Source of the DNA: Effusibacillus pohliae DSM 22757
GTDB taxonomy: Bacteria; Bacillota; Bacilli; Tumebacillales; Effusibacillaceae
Length of the DNA: 64,000 bases
NCBI RefSeq assembly: GCF_000376225.1
Contig: NZ_AQXL01000128.1
Span: 1-64,000, forward strand
Direction: 5' to 3'
In this document: piece by piece, positions 1,731-4,401 of the stretch
How the letters are laid out: the number at the start of each line of letters is the position of its first letter
How positions within the stretch are numbered: the stretch's first letter is position 1
Notes under the pieces: model-generated
The model's input: only the letters and a program-made list of their open reading frames with translations
What the model was told of the DNA's origin: nothing
The model's database searches: none
Translations under genes and position numbers: made by a program

Positions 1731-1777
1731 AACAGCCGGCCCTCCCGCAGACGGGAAAATCCGGCTGTTCGCTATTT
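1731..1777. terminator. Bidirectional terminator between convergent genes
   Basis: AACAGCCGG pairs with CCGGCTGTT around an inner CCCG/CGGG stem, followed by a T-rich run (CTATTTTTG) on the plus strand and preceded by A-rich sequence that gives a short T run on the minus strand. It separates the plus-strand pair from the minus-strand SDR gene. Confidence 0.75.
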
Positions 1778-2557
1778 TTGTTTCCGGTACAGCCTGCCGG
1801 CTCCCCGGGCAAACAAGGTGGGCATCAACGCTTTGAATTTGACCAGCGGGGCCATGCCTCCCGGTACCATCACCTGCGGAATTTCCTGCTCGACCGCCCG
1901 CACGATCGCCCGCGCCACCCGGTCCGGTTTTTGCATGAACCGCTGCGCCACTCTCGGAATTTTTTGAATGTCGGCCCGTTCGAAAAACGGGGTGTCAATC
2001 GGCCCCGGATTGATCGTAATCACCTTGACGCCGTGTTCCCTCACTTCCTCGCGCAACGCCTCCGACAAGCCGATCACTGCAAATTTTGTCGCCGCATAGC
2101 CGCCGTGCGTCGGCGCCGCCACAAATCCGGCCATGGAACCGACGTTCACCACACACCCCTTTGCTTGTCTGACCATGTGCGGCACAACAGCCTGGATGCA
2201 ACGGACCACGCCAAAATAATTTACATCCATCATCCCGACGATATCCTGCATATCCGCTTCCAGCACCGGCGCGAATACGCCAAAACCGGCATTATTGACC
2301 AGGACGTCGATGCGTCCGTAACGGTCGATGACCTTCTGCGCCATCGTGTAGACTGAGCCCGGGTCAGTTACGTCGACCGGTACGGGTAGACATTGTCCTC
2401 CATTGTTTTCGATGATCGCCGCCAACTCTTGCAGCCTGTGTTGGGAACGGGCAGCCACCGCCAGCAACGATCCCCTGGCAGCAAACGCAAGTGCCGTTTC
2501 CCAACCGATTCCGCTGGAAGCGCCGGTAATCAGGGCGACTCTGCCTTTCAGGTTCAT
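1772..2557 (-). CDS. SDR-family NAD(P)-dependent oxidoreductase
   Basis: This is a classical short-chain dehydrogenase of 261 residues. The Rossmann motif T-G-A-S-S-G-I-G is at 11-18, N-N-A-G at 88-91, the catalytic Ser at 141 (V-G-S-M-A-G) and Y154-x-x-x-K158 (Y-A-A-T-K). The C-terminal part (T-P-F-F near 180-190) resembles the ketone or acyl reductases annotated as YqjQ or DltE-like, so the substrate may be a lipid or hydroxyacyl compound, but that is inference. Its ATG overlaps the stop of the Lin0512-family gene as ATGA, so the two are translated from one transcript. Confidence 0.9.
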   Translation of the reverse strand: MNLKGRVALITGASSGIGWETALAFAARGSLLAVAARSQHRLQELAAIIENNGGQCLPVPVDVTDPGSVYTMAQKVIDRYGRIDVLVNNAGFGVFAPVLEADMQDIVGMMDVNYFGVVRCIQAVVPHMVRQAKGCVVNVGSMAGFVAAPTHGGYAATKFAVIGLSEALREEVREHGVKVITINPGPIDTPFFERADIQKIPRVAQRFMQKPDRVARAIVRAVEQEIPQVMVPGGMAPLVKFKALMPTLFARGAGRLYRKQK

Positions 2558-2928
2558 GCCGAATCACCCGGTTCGTAGCCGACTTCTACCGCTGCGTTCA
2601 CAATATACACCAGGTCGTTGCGATCCCCTTTATCCGGCAAAACGACACCGCTCGAACATAACAATCCGCCGGGTACCACCTCCACAGTCACTTGCCCGTA
2701 TGGAAAAACGGACTTCACTTTTTCAATGTTCACTTTGTCGGCGTCTGCCGGCACTCCGAGCTTCACATTGACCCGCATGTTGTTGATATCCCGGCCGGGC
2801 AAAAACTCCCGCAGCCCCGGCATCGAATTATGTTGAATCGCATTTCGGGCAGCCCGCACGCAAGCTTCCGTCACATCCTGGCCATGCAAATCGACGCCCA
2901 TCCCGATCTCGACAAATACCACTTTCAT
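2554..2928 (-). CDS. Lin0512-family protein of unknown function
   Basis: This 124-residue protein matches the Lin0512 family, which has no established function. Recognisable features are the N-terminal F-V-E-I-G-M-G-V-D-L-H-G-Q-D, the central D-A-D-K-V and V-P-G-G-L-L, and a conserved length. The ATG follows AGGGGTG. It is first in a two-gene unit with the SDR gene (ATGA overlap). A LexA-type palindrome lies only 17-30 bases upstream of its start codon, so its transcription may also be damage-responsive. Confidence 0.8.
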   Translation of the reverse strand: MKVVFVEIGMGVDLHGQDVTEACVRAARNAIQHNSMPGLREFLPGRDINNMRVNVKLGVPADADKVNIEKVKSVFPYGQVTVEVVPGGLLCSSGVVLPDKGDRNDLVYIVNAAVEVGYEPGDSA

Positions 2929-2944
2929 TCACAGCACCCCTTTC

Positions 2945-2958
2945 CGAACATATGTTCT
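2945..2958. promoter_or_regulatory. LexA (DinR) type SOS operator
   Basis: The sequence CGAACATATGTTCT matches the Gram-positive LexA box CGAAC-N4-GTTCG at all but the last base, with the perfect palindrome GAACATATGTTC as core. It abuts the -35 box of the plus-strand promoter and lies just upstream of the minus-strand Lin0512 gene, so repression of either or both is possible. Confidence 0.75.
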
Positions 2959-2986
2959 TGACGATCAGACAGCCTTTTGCTAAAAT
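2958..2986 (+). promoter_or_regulatory. Sigma-A promoter for the orphan gene at 3048
   Basis: TTGACG, exact 17-base spacer, TAAAAT; five of six matches in each box. The predicted start falls around 2993, giving a leader of about 55 bases. The LexA-type box overlaps the first base of the -35 box. Confidence 0.8.
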
Positions 2987-3047
2987 TTTCTTGCACCCGG
3001 AATTCTTCACCGCAGGATACGATTTTGAAGTGAGGAGTTGAATCTGG

Positions 3048-3599
3048 ATGTTGCTTGCCGCCAACCAATGGAATGAAACGATCGCCCGCTTTGTGATCGA
3101 GAATTATTCCCGCCCGTTCGACATCGTGTTCAACGGCTTCCGTGATTCGACCGTTGCGAATCGGGTGGGGAACGAGCTGTTGCGCTGCACCGAGCCGAAT
3201 CATCCTGTGCCAGACCTGTATCCATACATGCGCCGCTTGCCGGAGAACCTGATTCATCTGCTGTGCCTTGATGCCGCCACGCTGCTTTTGATGAATCGGT
3301 CCGAACAGCAGGAGATGCTGCGCGAAGCTTTACGGATTTTATCGCCGGGCGGATGTTGTGCGCTGTTGATTACGGATGAGATTCGTTCCGGCAAACTGGT
3401 CCCCAATGGTTTCCAACTGGTGCATCGATTCCTGGCCCAGCGGTTCAAAGTACTCACCATCATCGATCAACATGCGTGTCAAGGACTGCCTTTCCGGCTG
3501 GCTGCTCATCAGTATCTGGCTATCTTCCAAAAAACGGTCAACCGCAAGCAAGCGGTTCCTCGTTACACTCCAGCCGCTTTTCGATTTTCTTACTATTAA
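3048..3599 (+). CDS. Hypothetical protein, methyltransferase-like C-terminal part, probable SOS gene
   Basis: I do not recognise this 183-residue protein as a named family. The middle (about 75-115), with L-R-E-A-L-R-I-L-S-P-G-G followed by a hydrophobic strand A-L-L-I, resembles the post-motif region of class I SAM-dependent methyltransferases. The glycine-rich SAM-binding motif I is not visible, so it is either a divergent, reduced fold or not a methyltransferase. It has no membrane segment. The start has GAGGAG about ten bases upstream. It is preceded by a strong sigma-A promoter abutted by a LexA-type operator, so DNA damage induction is likely. The next gene, nth, is convergent. Confidence 0.7.
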   Translation: MLLAANQWNETIARFVIENYSRPFDIVFNGFRDSTVANRVGNELLRCTEPNHPVPDLYPYMRRLPENLIHLLCLDAATLLLMNRSEQQEMLREALRILSPGGCCALLITDEIRSGKLVPNGFQLVHRFLAQRFKVLTIIDQHACQGLPFRLAAHQYLAIFQKTVNRKQAVPRYTPAAFRFSYY

Positions 3600-3750: not shown

Positions 3751-4401
3751 TCAGGATACCCCCCTCCCCCTTGTCCGGTTTTGCTCTTTGCAAATGTCCG
3801 CCAACGGACAGGAATCGCACGCCGGTTTCTGGGCCTTACAATGATACCTGCCAAAGAAAATCAGCCTGTGGTGTGTCTGCGTCCATTCCTCTCTGGGAAC
3901 CGCCTTCATCAGCTTTTTCTCAACTTCCAGAACGGAGTCTTTCTTGTTCGCCAAGCCAAGGCGTTTGGACACCCGTTCCACATGCGTGTCCACGGCAATG
4001 GCGGGAACACCGAAGGCGTTGGACACCACCACGTTCGCAGTCTTGCGTCCGACTCCGGCCAGTTTGGTCAGCTGTTCATGCTCCCGTGGCACTTCCCCGT
4101 TGTGTTCTTCAATCAACGCTCTGCACAATGCCTGAATGTTCTTCGCCTTGCTGCGGTACAATCCGATATGCCTGATATCGTTCTCCAGTTCTGCCAAGGG
4201 AACGGAAACGTAATCCCAGGGAGTTTTATATTTCTTGAACAGCTCTTTCGTTACCTCATTCACCTTGCGGTCGGTGGCCTGAGCGGACAAAACAACCGCG
4301 ATCAACAGTTCAAACGGATTGGAATGGTGCAGTTCGCAATGTGCCTCAGGAAACATTTCCGCTAGAGTGTCCAAAATCCTGCGGACCGTCTTTTTGTTCA
4401 T
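3751..4401 (-). CDS. nth: Endonuclease III
   Basis: This 216-residue base-excision repair enzyme is a DNA glycosylase/AP lyase that removes oxidised pyrimidines. The helix-hairpin-helix L-A-G-V-G-R-K at 114-120 includes catalytic Lys120, and Asp138 lies in A-V-D-T-H. The [4Fe-4S] cluster ligands are Cys188, 195, 198 and 204 (C-x6-C-x2-C-x5-C). The frame is open for 87 more codons upstream, but that part looks noncoding; the ATG at 4401 follows AGGTGA and gives the family's usual length. In B. subtilis nth sits next to dnaD far from this region, so the position here is unusual. A TATAAT lies about 17 bases above the start. Confidence 0.95.
   Translation of the reverse strand: MNKKTVRRILDTLAEMFPEAHCELHHSNPFELLIAVVLSAQATDRKVNEVTKELFKKYKTPWDYVSVPLAELENDIRHIGLYRSKAKNIQALCRALIEEHNGEVPREHEQLTKLAGVGRKTANVVVSNAFGVPAIAVDTHVERVSKRLGLANKKDSVLEVEKKLMKAVPREEWTQTHHRLIFFGRYHCKAQKPACDSCPLADICKEQNRTRGRGVS

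Follow-up and report, generated by a model that had tools for sequence, protein, structure and literature searches.

Gene organization of the locus

The window, i.e. the whole 64,000-nucleotide stretch of Effusibacillus pohliae DNA that was analysed, contains a divergent gene pair in which a gene of the Lin0512 family, followed by one for an SDR-family oxidoreductase, faces a gene encoding a protein of 183 residues (Table 1). The region between them contains a 14-mer, CGAACATATGTTCT on the + strand, which differs at one position from the perfect palindrome CGAACNNNNGTTCG and lies 17-30 bases from the start of the Lin0512 gene (position 2928, on the opposite strand). This box is fused to a sigma-A promoter that matches the consensus at 10 of 12 positions, the overlap being one base, namely the first T of the TTGACG hexamer. 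A preliminary description of this DNA had noted a near-perfect Gram-positive LexA box, a strong sigma-A promoter abutting it and this same spacing to the Lin0512 gene, and all three are borne out exactly. Within the window the exact 14-mer is unique; all further sites have 2-3 mismatches, in a number equal to that seen in shuffled sequence.

Table 1. Coordinates of the genes and regulatory features in the window
Feature	Position	Strand	Remarks
SDR-family oxidoreductase gene	1772..2557	-	overlaps the Lin0512 gene at its end; the two genes stay together in the genus of the window
Lin0512-family gene (PF09585/TIGR02058)	2554..2928	-	divergent from the box; probably not a conserved LexA target
LexA-type operator CGAACATATGTTCT	2945..2958	.	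palindromic core GAACATATGTTC at 2946-2957; core in 11/11 homologous loci; motif also at lexA (twice), recN and uvrB in this genome
Sigma-A promoter	2958..2986	+	TTGACG (2958-2963), 17 nt, TAAAAT (2981-2986); hexamers and 17-nt spacing in 11/11 loci
Probable ribosome-binding site GAGGAG	3032..3037	+	10 nt 5' of the ATG; read from the sequence
Pseudo-methyltransferase gene (183 aa)	3048..3599	+	orthologous to the solitary N6/N4-type DNA methyltransferase of Tumebacillus but degenerate, with motif I changed and the segment of motif IV deleted
nth (endonuclease III)	3751..4401	-	convergent with the pseudo-methyltransferase gene; retained beside it in both families, without a promoter in common

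Conservation of the box and promoter

A protein search recovered orthologues of the gene at 3048-3599 in three further genomes belonging to the window's genus and in seven Tumebacillus-type genomes of a second family, one of which (G013) is Tumebacillus avium (identical locus). When 398 Bacilli genomes and 14 genomes of the order were searched with a profile, the gene was found in these 11 alone, and restriction-modification-type relatives were additionally recovered from two further genomes. Conservation of the box among relatives had been proposed as a check in the preliminary description; when this comparison was made, all 11 gene-bearing genomes (four of the window's genus and seven of the Tumebacillus type) proved to carry the core GAAC-RNNY-GTTC in the homologous intergenic region. 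Each of these loci, covering 3.2-3.5 kb, contains GAACRNNYGTTC exactly once, invariably in the gap that separates Lin0512 from the gene, and in every case the box is followed by TTG(A/T)C(A/G)-17-TA(A/C)AAT reading into the gene. The promoter alignment was anchored on the box, and the 100% conservation of the core within it is by construction; independent of this anchoring are the facts that each locus has a single site, that the -35/-10 geometry is fixed and that the box flanks are only about 27% identical between the families. The chance of encountering GAACN4GTTC in a 140-bp region is about 0.001-0.002, and its presence in 11 of 11 such regions therefore establishes the significance of the box, in an argument that spans two families of shared ancestry. 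Moreover, the placement of the box at a -35 element with a -10 element spaced by 17 nt in all 11 loci fits a blocking of the promoter by LexA.

Relationship to the LexA operators of Gram-positive bacteria

The LexA motif of Firmicutes has been described previously (PMC2248561), and the published LexA consensus of B. subtilis is CGAACATATGTTCG (PMC8270828). The GAAC-N4-GTTC palindrome of the window equals this consensus, as represented by the LexA (DinR) operators of B. subtilis lexA, recA, uvrB and recN, except for the last base, and both the overlap with a sigma-A promoter and the motif at the cell's own lexA, recN and uvrB genes are features shared with that system. In the genome of the window, lexA (C134:138114) is preceded by two exact boxes, GAACATTTGTTC and GAACGTCTGTTC, situated between it and a divergent gene for a LysM (YneA-like) protein; the second of these runs into TTGTCA (GTTCTTGTCA), thereby reproducing the fused box/-35 arrangement of the window site. 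The recN and uvrB genes are respectively associated with GAACATCTGTTC and GAACAGAAGTTC, and recA with GAACAAATGTTT, which has one mismatch, all of these being sampled loci of the LexA regulon rather than a full list of it. Each of the 11 genomes likewise has a box of the GAACN4GTTC type 5' of lexA (exact in eight, with one mismatch in three), and the recognition segment of LexA itself, PPSVREIG(D/E)AVGLASSSTVHGHL, is identical or near-identical across them. On the basis of these comparisons the site in the window is a genuine LexA-type operator of the ordinary Gram-positive kind.

Motif frequencies were less informative in this regard. In the 3.36 Mb genome there are 17 copies of the pattern GAACRNNYGTTC as against 12 of the reversed control; counting of the bare motif was dropped as proof of an operator, and since the motif is scarcely above control genome-wide, it is the conservation that must carry the argument. 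There are several chromosomal boxes that have no known SOS role, and a box alone is therefore no proof of regulation. The fused pattern GAACRNNYGTTCTTGNCA was matched 25 times in the 398 Bacilli genomes versus about 10 times for its reversed control, with 10 of the 25 matches belonging to the gene of the window type and 5 to lexA.

Assignment of the box to one of two divergent genes

Twenty Lin0512 loci of Bacilli were examined, of which all seven that lie beside a methyltransferase or methyltransferase-like gene show a perfect box core. In the other 13, from other Bacilli families and without a methyltransferase neighbour, there is no box within 260 bp upstream (none with fewer than two mismatches). 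Furthermore, the distance from the box to Lin0512 drifts, amounting to 17-52 bases in the window's genus and 70-90 in Tumebacillus, whereas that from the box to the -35 element of the methyltransferase gene is constant across loci. Taken together, the 7/7 versus 0/13 distribution and the fixed -35 junction assign the box to the gene at 3048-3599. The earlier suggestion of a LexA operator serving an undescribed SOS gene is hence well supported for this gene and unsupported for Lin0512, which we reject as the conserved LexA target; the closeness of the box in the window's genus is such that Lin0512 may still be affected by it there, with no conserved link. The sole solved relative of Lin0512 is 3c8l (E 7.8e-21), which is titled 'FtsZ-like protein of unknown function'. 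A functional link of nth through an operon was also ruled out, nth being convergent in all loci read.

Derivation of the gene from a DNA methyltransferase

The product of the gene at 3048-3599, which had been presented as an unrecognised orphan, proved to be a degenerate orthologue of a DNA methyltransferase. Its Tumebacillus orthologues are proteins of about 252 residues that match PF01555 (2.7e-24) in two stretches of swapped order, with motif I (LDxFxGSGT) preceding motif IV (TQPPY); their residues 45-243 also match the PADLOC profile MTase_II (PDLC03376). The window protein itself gives no match in Pfam (including at the gathering score of PF01555) or PHROGs and only weak ones in NCBIfam and PADLOC (1.4e-4 for PDLC03376); a profile built from our own alignment retrieves it at 1e-36, a value that is partly by construction. 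The window protein and its Tumebacillus orthologue are about 30-35% identical, and their orthology is additionally indicated by the shared order nth - gene - box - Lin0512, by the box and by the promoter. By these sequence comparisons the window protein and the PF01555 members are of common descent.

In all four species of the window's genus the motif I loop (FxGSGT) is replaced by NGFRDST and the PPY segment of motif IV falls in an alignment gap. The N-terminal 40 residues are also gone, and about 70 residues are missing relative to the Tumebacillus protein. A C-terminal stretch, P-NGFQLVHRFL...LPF-L-PHQYLAVFQK, is strongly conserved within the genus, where overall identity among congeners is 40-56%. 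The reading frame is open in all four species, and the window gene differs from its nearest relative (G002) mostly at third codon positions (0.39/0.21/0.63 for the three positions), dS being saturated and dN/dS bounded as low, no more. This excess at third positions indicates that the frame is maintained by purifying selection.

A structure model of the window protein (pLDDT 88.5, pTM 0.81) aligns with solved methyltransferases at Z 13-15 and rmsd 2.4-3.8 over 130-154 residues, and the Rossmann-like fold of class I SAM-dependent methyltransferases is accordingly predicted with confidence; a model made for the Tumebacillus enzyme was of low quality (pLDDT 60.6) and was left out. The matches include the N-terminal methyltransferase-like domain of anamorsin (4m7r), which we take to be an example of a methyltransferase fold devoid of a full SAM site. 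Anamorsin has the class I fold in common with the window protein, with no sequence relationship and an unrelated function. In the Tumebacillus orthologues a Q takes the place of D/N/S before PPY, so that even their activity is only putative. One Tumebacillus-type genome (G011) shows a frameshift about 40 codons from the start of the methyltransferase gene, with box and promoter intact.

Outside these two families, the relatives of the Tumebacillus protein are the THPPY methyltransferases (with AHPPY and SHPPY variants) of DpnII/MutH-type restriction-modification operons from Clostridia, Peptoniphilus, archaea and others, which are about 36% identical to it and share its motif order and a full-length alignment. 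Several of the loci read have adjoining genes for Dam and for DpnII or MutH-type endonucleases, unlike the Effusibacillus and Tumebacillus genes, which lack an endonuclease neighbour. A search of the 600 bp upstream of 76 more distant methyltransferase loci found no GAACRNNYGTTC-type pattern, clostridial variants ending in GTTT lying outside its scope, and LexA control as an old property of the methyltransferase family was thus set aside for the range of sites so covered. In genome G074 an exact GAACATTAGTTC lies 40 bases 5' of a Dam-type gene divergent from a THPPY methyltransferase, and may represent a LexA-type box within a restriction-modification cluster.

A proposed LexA-controlled methyltransferase remnant and its alternatives

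Based on these observations we consider it very likely that the locus combines a LexA operator at the promoter of the gene at 3048-3599 with a gene that is the remnant of a solitary N6/N4-type methyltransferase, whose product most likely acts without catalysis. LexA bound to the box would keep RNA polymerase off the -35 element, and upon DNA damage the RecA-stimulated self-cleavage of LexA would free the promoter. The methyltransferase would have come under LexA before the window's genus and the Tumebacillus family diverged, in their common ancestor. Subsequently, in the former, the SAM-binding loop and the catalytic PPY segment would have been lost while the fold and the C-terminal half were kept; a non-catalytic role in the SOS response, such as the binding of DNA or of a partner protein, is likelier there because the SAM-binding and catalytic motifs are absent and the fold and C-terminal half conserved. 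In Tumebacillus, repaired or incoming DNA could be what the solitary methyltransferase modifies. A more specific scenario, which we offer only tentatively, is that a DNA methyltransferase captured from a DpnII-type restriction-modification lineage came to be controlled by LexA and in one genus then turned into an SOS effector without catalysis, which binds DNA or a partner protein, for example in site shielding, restriction relief or a checkpoint.

That the palindrome arose by chance or is the operator of another regulator with a similar site appears highly improbable: the genome-wide count of the core, so close to that of its control, would allow it, but conservation in 11 of 11 loci with a fixed promoter geometry, and the same motif preceding lexA, recN and uvrB, speak against it. 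The box could instead control both divergent genes, with LexA repressing Lin0512 and the following SDR gene as well and the whole divergent unit being SOS-controlled. In the window's genus the box is indeed near enough to the Lin0512 start to block transcription, and the title of 3c8l makes a link to cell division imaginable; we nevertheless regard this as unlikely, given the 13 Lin0512 genes that have neither a methyltransferase neighbour nor a box, the variable distance to Lin0512 as against the invariant one to the methyltransferase -35 element, and the failure to find a good divergent promoter near the box.

The gene might also be a decaying pseudogene, with the box and promoter as relics from the time of an active methyltransferase. 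Such decay would account for the loss of the catalytic motifs and of about 70 residues and for the low identity among congeners, and the frameshift near the gene start in the one Tumebacillus-type genome is in line with it. However, four species retain the open frame, box, promoter and downstream half despite saturated synonymous change, and the concentration of differences at third codon positions and the strongly conserved C-terminal stretch are likewise opposed to it, making a pseudogene quite improbable.

Our proposal of a LexA-controlled methyltransferase remnant differs from the known B. subtilis-type operators in its target, a methyltransferase relative that none of the papers found recognises as an SOS gene. 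The open-access literature yielded no paper on Lin0512 in connection with LexA, nor any on a LexA-controlled methyltransferase like that of the window, and as far as this literature shows the best reading of the gene at 3048-3599 is as an undescribed SOS gene. What is unusual here is a methyltransferase relative without catalytic motifs that has probably stayed under SOS control. With it the SOS regulon of two Bacilli families would gain a lineage-specific gene, and DNA modification would be tied to the response to DNA damage. These families would also provide a natural comparison under one operator, between an apparently intact enzyme in one and a motif-less one in the other, which makes it testable of what use a methyltransferase is to a cell with DNA damage and whether this use depends on catalysis.

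Other LexA-type boxes

Elsewhere in the genome of the window, two identical boxes, GAACGTTTGTTC, are found at C123:78268 and C123:79094, respectively 19 and 50 bases 5' of genes that, as named by eye, encode an ImmA/IrrE-like protein with an HExxH motif and a protein resembling DUF5131 (phage Gp37/Gp68); these are possibly part of a LexA-controlled mobile or phage-derived unit. At C104:15888 a box, GAACGCGTGTTC, precedes by 36 bases a radical-SAM gene that by eye is like the SplB/Rv2578c group and is a possible further SOS gene. In three other Bacilli genomes (G330, G304 and G295) a LexA-type box lies 19-35 bases 5' of a radical-SAM gene whose product resembles, again by eye, a putative DNA modification/repair radical-SAM protein.
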